Assembly: GCF_021533835.1 (NCBI RefSeq)
Contig: NZ_JAKFYQ010000001.1
Coordinates: forward strand, 654,079 to 718,078
Reading direction: 5' to 3'
Length of the DNA: 64,000 bases
Source of the DNA: Synechococcus sp. Nb3U1
Lineage (GTDB): Bacteria; Cyanobacteriota; Cyanobacteriia; Thermostichales; Thermostichaceae
Under the pieces are notes generated by a model. It searched no databases, was not told the origin of the DNA, and saw only the letters and a list, made by a program, of their open reading frames with translations. The position numbers and the translations under genes were made by a program. Below are positions 1,463-50,742 of this stretch, in pieces. Each line of letters opens with the position of its first letter. Position 1 is the stretch's first letter.

Positions 1463-1518
1463 CTGGGATCCACCCTTTTTCTTTCCTCCCCCCTGATACG
1501 CTTTAGAGGCTCATGGTT

Positions 1519-3492
1519 ATGCCTGTTCGTACCTATGCTGCGCCGCCGACCCCTTGGTCTCGTGAATTGGCGGAGCCCGATATTGACCCGTCCGCCTATG
1601 TACATTCCTTCTCCAATTTGATTGGGGATGTGCGGGTGGAAGCACAGGTTTTGATCGCTCCAGGCACTTCGATTCGAGCCGACGAGGGATCCCCTTTTCA
1701 TATTGGTGAGGGATCCAACATCCAAGATGGGGTGGTGATCCACGGCCTCGAGCAAGGAAGGGTCGTGGGGGAAGATGGTGAACCCTACTCCGTCTGGATC
1801 GGCAGGAATACCTCCATCGCTCACATGTCCCTGATTCACGGGCCAGCCTATGTGGGCAACGACTGCTTTATCGGCTTTCGCTCAACGGTGTTCAATGCTC
1901 GGGTTGGGGATGGCTGCATCGTCATGTTGCACTGCCTAATTCAGGATGTGGAGATTCCCCCCGGCAAATATGTGCCCTCTGGTTCCATCATCACCACCCA
2001 AGCCGAGGCAGATCGGCTGCCTAACGTGCAGGACAGCGATGCCAAGTTTGCCCAGCATGTGATTGGTATTAACCAAGCGCTGCGAGAGGGCTACCAATGC
2101 AGCGAAAACCTAGTCTGCATTGCCCCGATCCGCAATGAACTGCAATCGAGCACCCATAAAACGGCTACGGAGACTGCACCCATGACCTATTCCTCCCATC
2201 GTGCCAACGGATGGAACGGCGGCGGATCCCATCTCAAGCCTGAGGTGGTGGAGCAAATTCGCGCCCTATTGGCCCAGGGATATCGAGTTGGCCTTGAATA
2301 TGCCGATGCGCGTCGTTTCCGCACCTCCTCCTGGCAAAGTGAAAGCCCAATCACCAGTACCCGCGAAGCTGAGGTGATGCAGTCGTTGGGGGCAATTCTG
2401 GCTGAGCACCAAGGGGAATACGTGCGCCTGTTGGGGATCGATCCGAAGGCCAAGCGGCGGGTCTTGGAGCAGATCATCCAAACTCCTGATGGGCCGGCCC
2501 AAGTTGCTGGAGGGTCATCTCGGATCCCGTCAGCCCCCAGCTCAAGTGCTGCACCCGCTGTCCCTTCTGGTGATGGCCTGAACTTGGAAGATCAGATCCG
2601 TTCTCTTCTGGCGCAAGGGTACCGGGTTGGGTTAGAAGCGGCCGATGCCCGTCGTTACCGTACCTCCTCCTGGCAAACGCTGGGCAACCTGAGTGGCCAA
2701 CCCCGCGAGATTCTCGCTTCCATCCAAATCGCTTTGGCGGAGCACCCAGGGGAGTATGTGCGGTTGTTGGGGATCGATCCAAAGGCCAAACGGCGGGTGC
2801 TGGAGTTGGTGATTCAAACCCCGCAAGGGCAGGTGAGTCGCGGTTCTACTGGTGTGGGTAAGGCTGCTGGGGCTGCTGCGTCGGCAGGGAGCGTTGCCGG
2901 GTTGGAGCTAGGGCTGCAGGAGGAAGTTCATCGTCTCTTGGCCCAGGGTTATCGGATTGGCTACGAATATGCGGATGAGCGCCGCTTTAAGACCTCTTCC
3001 TGGAAGAGTGGCCCCACCATTCGCGCCACCCGTGGGCCGGAGGTGCTGGCGAAGCTCACAGCTGCCTTGGCTGAACATCAAGGGGAATATGTACGCCTGA
3101 TCGGCATCGACTCCAAGGCCAAAAAACGGGTCTTTGAGCAAATCATCCAAACCCCCGGCAATAAACCGGCGGGATCCCCCTCCACCCCCGCTGTCCCATC
3201 TTCTGCCAGTGCCTCCCATACCCCCTCCACTCGCCTCGATGCCGAGGTCTTGACGCAGGTACAACAGCTGTTGAGCCAGGGCTATCGCATTGGTACCGAA
3301 CATGCCGATAAGCGTCGCTTCCGCACCTCCTCTTGGCAAAGCTGTAGCCCCATCGAAGCCACCCAGATACCTCAGGTGGTGGCTGCTCTAGAGGCCTGTC
3401 TAGAGGAACATCGCGGCGAATATGTGCGCCTGCTCGGCATTGATGCCAAGGCGAAACGGCGGGTGTTGGAGCAAATCATCCAAACCCCCTAG
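1519..3492 (+). CDS. ccmM: Carboxysome scaffold CcmM: gamma-carbonic anhydrase domain plus four RbcS-like domains
   Basis: CcmM condenses Rubisco in the beta-carboxysome and recruits CcmN. Residues 1 to about 210 form a left-handed beta-helix gamma-carbonic anhydrase domain. Cysteines fall at 194 and 200 when counting from the ATG at 1519; this pair forms the activating disulfide in the Thermosynechococcus protein. Four Rubisco small-subunit-like repeats follow. Each contains a variant of '[17 protein letters not shown]' and ends near 'IIQTP', and the linkers are rich in Pro, Ser and Ala. Total length is 657 residues. The ATG at 1519 is preferred over 1513 because GAGG (1506-1509) is nine bases from it but only three from the earlier one. 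A short form probably starts internally (see 2169-2184). Confidence 0.96.
2169..2184 (+). promoter_or_regulatory. Internal ribosome binding site for a short CcmM
   Basis: Inside ccmM, right after the carbonic anhydrase domain, GGAG (2169-2172) stands nine bases before an in-frame ATG at 2182. Translation from there would give a 436-residue protein with only the four RbcS-like repeats. This matches the known short CcmM (M35-type) that cyanobacteria make from an internal start. The match of site and domain boundary is seen; use of the site is inferred. Confidence 0.65.
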
Positions 3493-31405: not shown

Positions 31406-32914
31406 ATGCCCAGAGATTTGCGTCGCTTCATCACCCTATTAGAATCCCGTGGCCAGCTCCGCCGCATTACAGCGGCAGTGGATCCCGACCTAGAAATTGC
31501 CGAGATTGCCGATCGCCTCTTGGCCTGTGGGGGGCCAGCCCTGCTGTTTGAGCGGGTGAAGGGATCCCGTATGCCCCTGTTGATCAATGCCCTGGGTACG
31601 GTGGAGCGCATCTGCTGGGCCATGGGCATGGAGCAGCCGCAGGAGCTAGAAACCCTGGGCAAAAAATTGGCCTTGCTCTATCAGCCGCGACCTCCGAAAA
31701 AGTTCTCCCAGGCGGTGGAACTAGGGCAGGCTCTATTTAGCGTGCTCAAGGCCAAACCCAGCCGGGATCTGTTGCCCCCCTGCCAGCAGGTGGTGGTGCA
31801 GGGAGAAGAAGTGGATCTGACTCAATTGCCACTGTTGCGGGTCTATCCGGGGGATGCCGGACGGGTACTCACCCTGGGGCTGATGGTGACCAAAGACCCG
31901 GAAAATGGGATCCCCAATGTGGGGGTTTATCGTCTACAGTTGCAAAGCCGCAACACCATGACGGTGCAATGGCTGTCGGTGCGGGGGGCAACCCGGCATT
32001 TGCGCAAAGCGGCGGCCTTGGGCAAAAAGTTGGAAGTAGCAGTAGCGGTGGGGGTGGATCCCTTGGTGATTATGGCAGCGGCGACTCCGGTGCCGGTGGA
32101 TCTGTCGGAATGGCTGTTTGCCGGCCTCTACGCGGGGGAAGGGCTCCACCTGGCCCAATGCAAGACCGTGGATTTGCAGGTGCCAGCCCAATCGGAGATC
32201 GTCTTGGAAGGCACGATCACCCCCGGAGAAGTGGCCCCTGACGGCCCCGCCGGAGATCACATTGGCTACTATGGCCCCCGCAACGAGCAAGCCCCCCTGA
32301 TCCGCTTTCACTGCCTCACCCACCGCCGGGATCCGATCTATCTCACCACCTTCAGTGGCAAGCCCCCGAAGGAAAACGACATGATGGCCCTGGCCCTGAA
32401 CCGGGTTTACACCCCCATCTTGAGACAACAGGTGCCGGAAATCGTTGATTTCTTTTTGCCGATGGAGGCTCTGGGCTACAAAGCGGCGATTCTTTCGATT
32501 GACAAAGCTTACCCTGGCCAAGCGCGGCGAGCGGCCCTGGCCTTCTGGAGCGCCCTGCCCCAGTTCAGCTACACCAAATTTGTGATCGTGGTGGACAAAG
32601 ACATCAATGTCCGGGATCCACGGGCGGTGGTTTGGTGCCTCTGTTCACGGGTGGATCCGCAGCGGGATGTGTTTATTCTGCCAGATAACCCCTTCGACTC
32701 CCTCGATTTCGCCACTGAAAAACGCGGCCTTGGGGGCAAAATGGGCATCGATGCTACCACCAAGATCCCCCCGGAAACCGATTCCCTCTGGCGGGATCCC
32801 CTCACGTCTGATCCTGAGGTGGCCAAGCTGGTCGAGCGCCGCTGGGCGGAGTACGGCCTCTCGGACGTGAACTTGCAGGCCGCGGATCCCCGTTTGTTTG
32901 GCTATGAACTCTAG
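31406..32914 (+). CDS. ubiD: UbiD family (prenylated-FMN) decarboxylase
   Basis: The 502-residue protein belongs to the UbiD family of decarboxylases, which in cyanobacteria serve plastoquinone synthesis (4-hydroxy-3-prenylbenzoate decarboxylation). It shows 'PRDLRRFITLLESRGQL' at the start, 'PNVGVYRLQL', 'GDHIGYYGP', 'IYLTTFSGKPPKENDMM' and the C-terminal 'GGKMGIDATTK' segment. The conserved Glu of the 'EIVLEGTI' and 'DHIGYYG' regions is present. ATG 31406 is preferred over GTG 31394. Its 3' end overlaps the convergent MacB-like gene by four bases. Confidence 0.93.
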   Translation: MPRDLRRFITLLESRGQLRRITAAVDPDLEIAEIADRLLACGGPALLFERVKGSRMPLLINALGTVERICWAMGMEQPQELETLGKKLALLYQPRPPKKFSQAVELGQALFSVLKAKPSRDLLPPCQQVVVQGEEVDLTQLPLLRVYPGDAGRVLTLGLMVTKDPENGIPNVGVYRLQLQSRNTMTVQWLSVRGATRHLRKAAALGKKLEVAVAVGVDPLVIMAAATPVPVDLSEWLFAGLYAGEGLHLAQCKTVDLQVPAQSEIVLEGTITPGEVAPDGPAGDHIGYYGPRNEQAPLIRFHCLTHRRDPIYLTTFSGKPPKENDMMALALNRVYTPILRQQVPEIVDFFLPMEALGYKAAILSIDKAYPGQARRAALAFWSALPQFSYTKFVIVVDKDINVRDPRAVVWCLCSRVDPQRDVFILPDNPFDSLDFATEKRGLGGKMGIDATTKIPPETDSLWRDPLTSDPEVAKLVERRWAEYGLSDVNLQAADPRLFGYEL

Positions 32915-34122
32915 GCCCGCAGCGCTTCGATCGGATCCAATTGTGCCGCTTTCCGGGCCGGGAAAATGCCGAAGACCAGCCCAATTGCCGTCGAGAGGCT
33001 GAAAGAAACCGCCACTGCCACCGGATCGATCGTGGTTGCCAAGGGGGTAAAAACCTGTACCACCACCAGAAGGCCACTGCTGAAGAGGATGCCGATCACC
33101 CCCCCCGTCACGGCAATAAAAATGGCTTCTGTGGCAAATTGCTGCAAAATCTGGCGGCTATCGGCCCCAATCGCCTTGCGTACCCCGATCTCATGGGTGC
33201 GTTCGGCCACCGAGATCAACATCACATTCATGATCCCTACGCCCCCCACCAGCAGGGAGAGGGCCGCTGTGCCCGTCAGCAACACCCGCAGCAGGCCCAG
33301 GATCGTGGCCGCCCCATCCAGCAACACCTTTTGGTTACGGATGATGAAGTCATCTTCCCCCACCAGTTGATGCCGTTGCCGCAGCAGGTTGCGAATTTGA
33401 AACTCGGCAGCGGGTAGATCTTCCACCGAGCGGGCTGAGGCGAAAATCGCCGTCAACTCCGTGCCGTAGGGAGATCTGCGCCCAACAAACTGATTGGCCA
33501 CCACATCCACCGGCAGAAATACCCCAGCATCGCTGTTGCCAAACACCGTCGGTTTGGAGCGCAGGGTGCCGATCACCTCAAAGGGCAAATTGTTCAGCAA
33601 CACGGTCTGCCCGAGAGCACTGGCGGGATCCAGCCCAAACAGTTGGCTAGCCGCCTCACTACCCAGTACCACCACTGAGCGTTGTTCCTTAATATCTGCT
33701 GGCGAAAGAAAGCGACCGTGTTCCATCTCCAAATTCAATACCGACAAATACTCTGGCCAGGTGCCCGTCGCTTCATAGCGGCGATCTACTCCCCCCCGCA
33801 CCGCGCGCACATTGGTGCCGATGCTGGGCACGGCTGCCGATACGGCGGGCACCTCCTGCTCGATCGCCATCAGATCATCCAGGGTAATCGGGCGGGTATT
33901 GCTGGCATCCGCTAGGCCCAAGCTGGACGAAAAAACAATTAACAAATTGGTGCCCAAGGAACGGAACTGATCCACCGCCATCTCTTGGGCCGCATTGCCA
34001 AACCCGGCGATCGCCACCACCGCTGCATTGCCGATCAGGATCCCGAGCATGGTGAGGCCCGTGCGCAGCCGATGCCGTTGCACCATTTGCCAGGCCATTT
34101 TGGCAGAGGTAACCAGACTCAT
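32911..34122 (-). CDS. MacB/DevC-type ABC exporter permease (FtsX-like)
   Basis: The 403-residue protein has an N-terminal helix, a large MacB periplasmic domain (about 45-240) and three C-terminal FtsX helices with 'GGVGIMNVMLISVAERTHEI' and 'GVRKAIGA', which are family signatures. There is no ATPase domain, so a separate ATPase is needed as in DevBCA. It starts two bases after the stop of the MFP gene, so the two are certainly co-translated partners. The likely role is export across the outer membrane with a TolC-type channel; substrate unknown. Confidence 0.9.
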   Translation of the reverse strand: MSLVTSAKMAWQMVQRHRLRTGLTMLGILIGNAAVVAIAGFGNAAQEMAVDQFRSLGTNLLIVFSSSLGLADASNTRPITLDDLMAIEQEVPAVSAAVPSIGTNVRAVRGGVDRRYEATGTWPEYLSVLNLEMEHGRFLSPADIKEQRSVVVLGSEAASQLFGLDPASALGQTVLLNNLPFEVIGTLRSKPTVFGNSDAGVFLPVDVVANQFVGRRSPYGTELTAIFASARSVEDLPAAEFQIRNLLRQRHQLVGEDDFIIRNQKVLLDGAATILGLLRVLLTGTAALSLLVGGVGIMNVMLISVAERTHEIGVRKAIGADSRQILQQFATEAIFIAVTGGVIGILFSSGLLVVVQVFTPLATTIDPVAVAVSFSLSTAIGLVFGIFPARKAAQLDPIEALRA

Positions 34123-34124
34123 GC

Positions 34125-35516
34125 TTATGGCTCCGCTTTGATCAACGTATCTAGGGTCATCCCTGGCGGCAAGGAGGTAAAAACGCGATCTCCCGGCTCT
34201 AGCCCTGAGAGAATCTGGGTTACCCCGCTTTGGGTAATCCCCGTTTCCACCTGCCGATAGACGGGCCGTTGGGTTTGCGGATCCAGCAGGATCACCCCCT
34301 CTTGGCCTCGCTCGTAGGTGACGGCAACTGAGGGGACGGTCAGGGCTTGCGGCTGGGGATCCCCGATGAAATCCACCGAAACATTCATGCCCGTCCGCAA
34401 AAAGTCTGCCCCTGGCTCCGGTTCCACGATCACCCGAAAGACCGTCACTTCCCGTACCACCACCGTTGCCGGAGCAATCCGTTTCACCTGGCCCTGCACC
34501 ACTTGGTCAGGATAGGCGAGGGAGCGAATCTCCACCGGTTGCCCCACCTGGACTTGCGCAATTTGGGCTTCGGGCACTTCCGCCCGCACTTCGATCCCTT
34601 GCGCCAGGGCCAAAATCGAGCTGGAAGAGGCGGCTGTAGCGTCAGAAGCCGCTGTGGTGGGGGCCACAAAAGAACCAATTTCGGCAAAACGTTGCACCAC
34701 GATCCCTGTGAAGGGAGCACGAACTTCTGTATCGGCAACCCGGGATTGCCGTTGGGCCAGATCTGCCTGCGCTTGGGCGATCTGGGCTTGGGTTTGCTGA
34801 ATCGCTTCCGGGCGGCTCCCTAGCTGTAGCCGCTCCAGTTCCTGTTGGGCAGAACGCAGTTCCGCTTGGGCCTGCTCCAGACGAGCCAATCGTTGATCCA
34901 ACTCGTTGCGGGCCACCACCCCCTCTTGTACCAAGGCTTGAATGCGATCCCACTCGGTTTGGGCTAAGTCCACCTGGGATTGGGCCGCATCCACCCTCGC
35001 TTGGGCACCGGCAATGACTTGGGTACGTTCCCCCGCTTGTTGCTCCGCCAGACGGGCTTGCAATTCTTGAATGCGGGCTTGGGCCTGTTGAATGCTGCTG
35101 GTCAGATCCCCATAATCCATGCGGGCGAGTAACTGCCCTTCTGTCACTTCATCCCCTTGATCCACGAATAATTCCAGCAAACGCCCCGACTCCCGCGGGC
35201 TGACATTCACCTGGCGAATGGGCTGCACCTGCCCACTCACCCGCAGGCGTTGGGTGAGATCCGCCACCTGTACGGGCACAGTCAGGGCTTGGAACCGTTG
35301 TGCCATCTGTTGCTGGAACTGCCGCTGGAGAAAATATCCTCCTGTACCTAAACCCGCCAACAGCAAGCCGGCAACCATCCAGCCGATGGGCAATCCTCTT
35401 TTTTTCCGGGATCCGGCCTGCGCAGGGGGCAGGGGCGGTTCTAAGGGTTTGGGAAGGGATTGGGATCCCGTCTTTGGCTCATCCGTATGCAGGATCACAG
35501 AATGTCTCCCATTCAT
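34125..35516 (-). CDS. Membrane fusion protein (HlyD/DevB/MacA family)
   Basis: The 463-residue periplasmic adaptor has a short basic cytoplasmic N-terminus, one membrane helix ('IGWMVAGLLLAGLGTGGYFL', about 40-62), a biotinyl-lipoyl-like hairpin, a long coiled coil rich in Gln/Ala (about 125-230), and the beta-barrel and membrane-proximal domains. It pairs with the MacB-like permease two bases downstream. Its first 114 codons are copied in tandem just upstream, and the ATG at 35516 now overlaps the stop of that truncated copy (ATGA). It must therefore be transcribed through the copy from the original promoter. Confidence 0.92.
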   Translation of the reverse strand: MNGRHSVILHTDEPKTGSQSLPKPLEPPLPPAQAGSRKKRGLPIGWMVAGLLLAGLGTGGYFLQRQFQQQMAQRFQALTVPVQVADLTQRLRVSGQVQPIRQVNVSPRESGRLLELFVDQGDEVTEGQLLARMDYGDLTSSIQQAQARIQELQARLAEQQAGERTQVIAGAQARVDAAQSQVDLAQTEWDRIQALVQEGVVARNELDQRLARLEQAQAELRSAQQELERLQLGSRPEAIQQTQAQIAQAQADLAQRQSRVADTEVRAPFTGIVVQRFAEIGSFVAPTTAASDATAASSSSILALAQGIEVRAEVPEAQIAQVQVGQPVEIRSLAYPDQVVQGQVKRIAPATVVVREVTVFRVIVEPEPGADFLRTGMNVSVDFIGDPQPQALTVPSVAVTYERGQEGVILLDPQTQRPVYRQVETGITQSGVTQILSGLEPGDRVFTSLPPGMTLDTLIKAEP

Positions 35517-35863
35517 AACAAACGCCCCGACTCCCGCGGGCTGACATTCACCTGGCGAATGGGCTGCACCTGCCCACTCACCCGCAGGCGTTGGGTGAGA
35601 TCCGCCACCTGTACGGGCACAGTCAGGGCTTGGAACCGTTGTGCCATCTGTTGCTGGAACTGCCGCTGGAGAAAATATCCTCCTGTACCTAAACCCGCCA
35701 ACAGCAAGCCGGCAACCATCCAGCCGATGGGCAATCCTCTTTTTTTCCGGGATCCGGCCTGCGCAGGGGGCAGGGGCGGTTCTAAGGGTTTGGGAAGGGA
35801 TTGGGATCCCGTCTTTGGCTCATCCGTATGCAGGATCACAGAATGTCTCCCATTCATAACAAA
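35178..35863. repeat. 341-bp perfect tandem duplication
   Basis: Copy one (35178-35522) and copy two (35519-35863) read identical base for base at an offset of 341. The junction shows about four bases of shared sequence (CAAA). It duplicates the 5' end of the MFP gene. Because 341 is not a multiple of three the second copy ends out of frame. Complete identity suggests a very recent event or an assembly artefact. Confidence 0.92.
35513..35857 (-). pseudogene. Truncated duplicate of the membrane fusion protein gene
   Basis: This 114-codon copy has the MFP N-terminus (start MNGRHSVILHTDEPKTGSQS through the membrane helix to 'NVSPRESGR') followed by LL and TGA. It keeps the original promoter and leader. 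Its stop overlaps the ATG of the intact copy (TTATGA), so translation of the fragment may reinitiate on the full gene. Alone it would be a single-span membrane peptide without the coiled coil, with no evident function. Confidence 0.85.
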
Positions 35864-36041
35864 GGATTGACCTTTCTTTAGCCTATTGGAAAGATTCAGG
35901 GGGCGTAAACACGGTTTCCCGCATCTTAACTGGGTCGGGGATCCCTCGCTATGCTGACCCCCTGCAAACCCAAAAACAAACTCTGTACAAGGAGGAGGAT
36001 GGGTTGTTATTATGATTAACTGCCAGTAGCGCGGGAAGGCC

Positions 36042-36413
36042 ATGAACGCTCAAGAGATCATCCGCTCCATTGAAACGGAACAAATGAAATCGGATCTGCC
36101 GGAGATCCGTATTGGCGATCAGGTGCGAGTTGGGGTTCGCATTCAAGAAGGCGGCAAAGAGCGGGTACAAGCCTTTGAGGGCACGGTCATCGCTGCTCGC
36201 AATTCCAGATCCAATCGCACCATCACCGTGCGTAAAATCTTTCAGGGAGTGGGAGTGGAGCGAGTTTTCCTGATTCACTCTCCCCGCATTGAGTCGATTA
36301 AGGTGCTGCGTCGCGGTAAAGTGCGCCGGGCCAAGCTTTTTTACTTGCGGGATCGGGTGGGCAAAGCCACTCGCATCAAAGCCAAAGTGGATTACAAAGA
36401 GCAGTCGCTGTAA
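36042..36413 (+). CDS. rplS: 50S ribosomal protein L19
   Basis: L19 lies at the subunit interface. The 123-residue protein has the family signatures '[20 protein letters not shown]', '[10 protein letters not shown]' and '[20 protein letters not shown]', with a basic C-terminus. A tRNA-Trp gene follows 74 bases later. It is divergent from the MFP-MacB pair. Confidence 0.97.
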
Positions 36414-36840: not shown

Positions 36841-36985
36841 CCCCTAGGGGGCTTGGTGAATACCAAGGGACAAGTTAACCTGAGTAACTCGGGCAGACTG
36901 GGGAAAGCGCGGTGCAACTCCGCCACTGTGACGCAACTGTGATGGGATCCCTCCCTCAGCCAGAACACCCACCTGCCCCTATCCC
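36841..36985 (+). promoter_or_regulatory. Cobalamin (B12) riboswitch upstream of cbiX
   Basis: The core reads GGGGAAAGCGCGGTG, then CAACTCCGCCACTGTG, CGCAACTGTGATG and a B12-box-like CAGCCAGAACACCC, in the order and spacing of cobalamin riboswitches. An expression-platform hairpin CCTTG (36991-36995)/CAAGG (37003-37007) follows, ending just before the GGAG of cbiX. So control is probably on translation or nearby termination. Core assignment is strong; exact 5' end is approximate. Confidence 0.85.
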
Positions 36986-37019
36986 ACATCCCTTGCGATT
37001 CACAAGGAACGGAGTTTTC

Positions 37020-49856: not shown

Positions 49857-49899
49857 GGCTCCCTTTTCCGTGCAACGCGGAACATCAAGGACACGAGCA

Positions 49900-50045
49900 A
49901 AGACCGTAGGCGGGCATCCTGACTGAGAGCTAAGCAGACACCTAACTCATCACAGTTGCGGCACAGCGCCGGATTTACACCGGACTTTCCCCCTCACTCA
50001 CCGTGGCTGATCCCCACAGTGACCTAGCGGTAGACTTGCACTATA
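49900..50045 (-). promoter_or_regulatory. Cobalamin (B12) riboswitch upstream of btuB
   Basis: Read leftward the region contains GGGGGAAAGTCCGGTG, TAAATCCGGCGCTGTG, CCGCAACTGTGATGAG and the B12 box AGTCAGGATGCCCGCC, in canonical order and spacing. It ends about 45 bases before the receptor ATG. With B12 bound, expression of the uptake operon should fall (known behaviour of the class). Confidence 0.93.
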
Positions 50046-50083: not shown

Positions 50084-50742
50084 CTAAGGCGTAACAGTCA
50101 CCTCAAAAATCTCCTCATCCGCTAGCCTCAAAACCCGTTGCCCTGCTGCTAACAACTCTTCTCGCGGCAAATCTCGATACTCTTCCAAAAAGGTGCCCAG
50201 CACGCGAAATTCCACCTGCTTGCCACTCTCCCGATGAATAACTAGACTAACCATTTCTGTAACGGATCCCACCTCCACCAGCTTCAGATTCATTTTTCCT
50301 AAACTGGCACCGGTTCCGGCGTGAAGACCATCTACTATAGAAGTAAACTGGATCTCCTTGGGTGACTTGTGAATCACCTCCACCGCAAAGCGATTTACAG
50401 AAGTGTGAGGGGTAGGGCTAAGCAAATCCAGTTCTTTCAGAGCTCTCAGTCCCATGCGATAGCCAGCGACAGCCCAAGGCCCCGCTCCCCCATGAATATC
50501 TGTTACCCGCTCTCTCCCCCATGAATATCTGTTACCCGCTCTGCTGTTGCTGACAGCGAGAAAGAAGGCTGCTCCTGCAAAGTTGGAATGGGGCCCCCGT
50601 GAGGATGTGCCAGAACAAATAATTGGCCTCCAGGTAAGCTGAGACTAAACAGAAACCCCGATAATGACAGGCAAGACCCTACACTCAAAATCCTAAGCAA
50701 GCTAATCATAGGCAGCGGGAAAGCTTGAATGCCCCCTGACAC
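50084..50742 (-). pseudogene. Exported FmdE-like protein, broken by a 29-bp tandem duplication
   Basis: The 5' part (50742-50503) encodes a signal peptide ('MISLLRILSVGSCLSLSGFL') and 'SFSLSATAERVTDIHGG', then stops. The 3' part continues 'AGPWAVAGYRMGLRALKELD' and 'FTSIVDGLHAGTGASLGKMN', an FmdE-domain pattern (PF02663-like). A 29-bp tandem duplication (50485-50542) separates them. Removing one copy gives exactly 210 codons in one frame. A shorter product could start at ATG 50455. FmdE-domain proteins bind metals; the place just upstream of the B12 receptor operon hints at a metal or corrinoid role (inference). Confidence 0.78.
50485..50542. repeat. 29-bp perfect tandem duplication in the FmdE-like gene
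   Basis: Copies 50485-50513 and 50514-50542 are identical. 29 is not a multiple of three, so the gene is put out of frame. No other change is needed to restore it. Confidence 0.93.

Follow-up and report, generated by a model that had tools for sequence, protein, structure and literature searches.

At the 5′ end of an exporter adaptor gene in Synechococcus sp. Nb3U1, the assembly carries two adjacent copies of the same sequence, and the copy nearer the promoter encodes a truncated version of the gene. The question is whether this arrangement changed how the intact gene is translated. A sequence-only reading of the window (the whole stretch of 64,000 nucleotides analyzed here) had described a fresh 341-bp tandem duplication and proposed that the exporter is now translated only by reinitiation. 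We consider it probable that the locus as a whole is explained by one recent, microhomology-joined duplication that left a bicistronic 5′ region and an intact gene with its own start, and that is near-neutral and revertible.

Genes at the locus

The genome (3.49 Mb) is assembled into 4 contigs, and the window lies inside contig 1 (2.2 Mb). In the first 20 kb of this contig, 5000 bases are N and are perhaps masked. The following genes are found at the locus:

34125-35498, minus strand: intact MFP gene, encoding an HlyD/RND_mfp adaptor of 457 aa (start at the conserved GTG) or 463 aa (start at ATG 35516)
32911-34122, minus strand: MacB/FtsX-type ABC permease gene, next downstream of the MFP gene (PF12704, E 1.5e-44; PF02687, E 2.2e-19)
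36042-36413, plus strand: rplS (ribosomal protein L19), the divergent neighbor (TIGR01024, 151 bits)

Profile scores over curated cut-offs identify the product of the intact gene as an RND/HlyD-type membrane-fusion adaptor (PF16576 [HlyD_D23], E 1.3e-15, 57.7 versus a cut-off of 30; PF13437, 33.2 versus 22.2; TIGR01730 [RND_mfp], 161 versus 94.9 bits). MacA proper was rejected (NF008606, 86.3 bits versus a cut-off of 342). The MFP-permease pair was present in all genus members and in the two other family genomes. Its domains and gene order are those of systems that combine a MacA/HlyD-type adaptor with a MacB/FtsX-type permease, although an unsystematic look at the neighborhood recognized no ATPase gene beside the pair.

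Several other features of the window were recorded. A cobalamin riboswitch at 36855-36990 on the plus strand (Rfam RF00174; 34.3 bits, barely above the cut-off) lies upstream of a CbiX-like gene; because the CbiX ORF as listed, from GTG 36912, overlaps the riboswitch, the gene probably starts later (at about 37021). A second cobalamin riboswitch (44.1 bits) is found at 49892-50043 on the minus strand. Just upstream of carboxysome-type genes, two direct copies of ∼300 nt (377-1113; 82% alike, 437 nt apart) are probably ccmK paralogues, and the direct repeats within 1513-3492 on the plus strand are due to a CcmM-like ORF, identified by eye, that has four repeats of ∼111 codons.

A perfect head-to-tail repeat

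The repeat consists of these parts:

35178-35522, minus strand: repeat copy A, the beginning of the intact MFP gene and, ahead of the ATG position, 6 nt of its leader
35519-35863, minus strand: repeat copy B, nearer the promoter and containing the truncated ORF
35519-35522, no strand: CAAA microhomology, at both breakpoints

As assembled, the two copies were identical at 345 of 345 bp with a start-to-start distance of 341 bp, and TRF returned a period of 341, 2.0 copies, and a 100% match. Chance origin of a 345-bp match is impossible. The repeat unit begins at TTTGTT, directly 5′ of the ATG, and extends as far as the ESGR codons. The 4 bp common to both copies at the junction read CAAA on the plus strand (TTTG on the coding strand), and 1.7% of breakpoint pairs placed at random with this 341-bp spacing are expected to share a run of at least 4 bp. 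We scanned the window and 20 stretches of 20 kb from the same genome (464 kb) for tandem repeats, and no other perfect head-to-tail repeat reached 40 matching bases. The window also holds a perfect 29-bp tandem duplication in two copies (50485-50542).

It is important to ask whether the repeat is real, since a single-copy genome in which two overlapping contig ends had been joined unmerged would yield exactly such a perfect head-to-tail repeat. The absence of the duplication from every relative fits this origin as well. However, the locus is interior to a 2.2-Mb contig of a 4-contig assembly, and the microhomology at the junction would then be a chance match. Further, the assembly is not full of such joins, because no second repeat of this kind appeared in the 464 kb. 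We thus regard an assembly artefact as unlikely.

A genuine tandem duplication formed at short homology, whether by illegitimate recombination or by replication slippage, matches the locus in each respect that we compared: adjacent direct copies whose period equals the unit length, a few base pairs shared at the breakpoints (here CAAA), a single-copy ancestral state (one copy in 7/7 other family genomes), and a recent origin with perfect identity. The sole difference here is the location at a gene start. The type of event is already well known; a literature search on rates of repeat loss and on small bacterial tandem duplications with microhomology turned up no direct precedent.

Distribution and age of the duplication

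Using the unit and its leader as a query, we obtained two matches in this genome and one in each of seven other family genomes. A remnant of the truncated copy was sought in the relatives and was not found. The relatives with names were cyanobacterial, the only one named to genus being Synechococcus sp. M44_DOE_062, and a scan of the collection yielded two close relatives, both MAGs. With 0 differences over 341 bp, divergence between the copies is bounded at 0.87% (95%), versus ∼15.5% over the unit for the nearest relative. The duplication is therefore recent, unless the copies have been homogenized by gene conversion. Judged by these comparisons, it is private to this genome among the family genomes and young, and the earlier description of a fresh 341-bp duplication with copies identical over 345 bases agrees with the period and with the single copy in relatives.

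The conserved start codon

The features that bear on translation are as follows:

35513-35839, minus strand: truncated MFP ORF, 108 codons, from GTG 35839 to TGA 35515-35513
35513-35516, minus strand: ATGA overlap of the truncated-ORF TGA (35515-35513) with an ATG (35516-35514) found in this genome only
35506-35510, minus strand: Shine-Dalgarno (SD)-like GGGAG of the intact gene, copied with the unit, 2 nt past the TGA
35847-35851, minus strand: GGGAG in copy B, 5′ of the truncated ORF, a second instance of the motif

ATG 35516 and GTG 35498 are in one frame, so that a start at the ATG would add 6 residues. We aligned the start region of six genus members, this genome among them. The columns of the ATG (−18 to −16 from the GTG) read ATG here only and ACG, ACA, or AAA in the others. 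The GTG, six codons downstream, was invariant in 6/6 genomes, as were the seven bases after it (ATCCTGC). A GRGAGA motif preceding the GTG was likewise conserved in 6/6; in this genome it includes the GGGAG, 7 nt before the GTG. In two genus genomes the gap between motif and GTG is one base shorter, which shifts the position equivalent to the ATG into a different frame from the gene. These alignments indicate that the true start is most likely the GTG (35498 in the intact copy and 35839 in the truncated copy) and that the ATG is probably wrong as the gene start. The SD-like motif supports the GTG but falls short of proof: initiation without SD motifs is frequent in Cyanobacteria (PMC6728339). 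Pattern searches of the genome sequence for a 16S rRNA gene, sought for its anti-SD, found no rRNA.

Translation of the intact gene

Since the repeat unit includes the GTG together with its SD-like motif, the intact gene and the truncated ORF each have a complete site for initiation. Measured from the stop of the truncated ORF, the conserved GTG of the intact gene lies at +14 nt, versus −4 for the ATGA overlap. In fold predictions at 37°C, the unpaired fraction from −20 to +15 was 0.50 for the intact gene versus 0.49 for the single-copy leader, and the GGGAG was predicted to be mostly paired in every context folded. Ordinary initiation should be about as feasible as before, since predicted pairing around the start differs little from that in the single-copy leader.

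The proposal that the intact gene is translated only by ribosomes that leave the truncated ORF and restart at the ATGA draws on known systems. Gene pairs with an ATGA (−4) overlap show tightly coupled translation in bacteria and archaea (Huber et al. 2023, PMC10666635), and Cyanobacteria reportedly make greater use of SD motifs in reinitiation than in first initiation (Huber et al. 2019, PMC6728339). As in the termination-reinitiation pairs of these studies, the stop here overlaps an ATG in frame with the intact gene. The locus differs from them in that the start conserved among the genus members is a GTG, which lies 14 nt past the stop and has its own GGGAG; the ATG occurs in this genome only. 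Reinitiation drops steeply with distance and is nearly abolished at ∼20 nt (PMC10666635); the distances tested in Escherichia coli included +14 nt, and effects at shorter distances were variable and pair specific. The overlap that had been described is thus present, but its ATG is probably not the start codon of the gene. Given the retained GGGAG and GTG, the unconserved ATG, and the predicted accessibility of the start, like that of the single-copy form, we consider obligate reinitiation quite improbable, and the idea that the duplication rewires expression in this way depends on a start codon for which the relatives give no support. Ordinary initiation at the GTG most likely still yields the exporter; reinitiation at the ATGA may add some protein as an extra route, with nothing obligatory about it.

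The promoter and the truncated ORF

One element lies upstream of the repeat:

35880-35909, minus strand: promoter-like element TTTACG-18 nt-TAGGCT, upstream of copy B and outside the unit

This element is largely conserved, ungapped, and at the same position in 6 genus members, and it precedes the truncated copy only. A strict promoter consensus scan of the minus strand over 35100-36100 found no promoter, and the assignment is therefore based on conservation. On that basis, the earlier statement that the truncated copy retains the original promoter holds.

The truncated ORF covers the N-terminal tail, a hydrophobic segment, and the first part of the barrel/lipoyl region but lacks the remainder; it gave no Pfam match. 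With these parts and a good start, its product might in principle be functional, for instance by disturbing adaptor assembly and damping the exporter. Against this, incomplete protein domains are usually degraded, the copy is too young for selection to be visible, and none of the seven other family genomes has a counterpart. A functional role therefore appears highly improbable, and the product is most likely a nonfunctional membrane-anchored fragment.

Proposed history and significance

We propose that a single tandem duplication at the 4-bp CAAA copied the end of the leader and the first 108 codons of the adaptor gene. The original promoter would now transcribe a bicistronic 5′ region, with the truncated ORF followed by the intact gene 14 nt past its stop. 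The intact gene would be made by ordinary initiation from the copied GGGAG and GTG, perhaps with help from ribosomes that complete the truncated ORF and begin again either at the GTG or at the in-frame ATG overlapping its stop. We would expect the mRNA to be longer, the N-terminal fragment to be useless, and exporter output to be somewhat altered. Loss of one repeat would restore the single-copy gene, and the change is probably near-neutral and easily reverted. Frequent repeat loss could in theory make the duplication a reversible expression switch, mixing cells with altered and full exporter expression, but we think this very unlikely. The locus looks like an ordinary recent accident and not like new expression control.

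As it stands, the significance of this locus is little. If confirmed in reads, it would be a clean, recent case of a truncated ORF inserted between a promoter and a gene that kept its own start. A chance in-frame ATG can suggest a coupling that relatives do not support, and genus-wide comparison of start codons reveals such cases.
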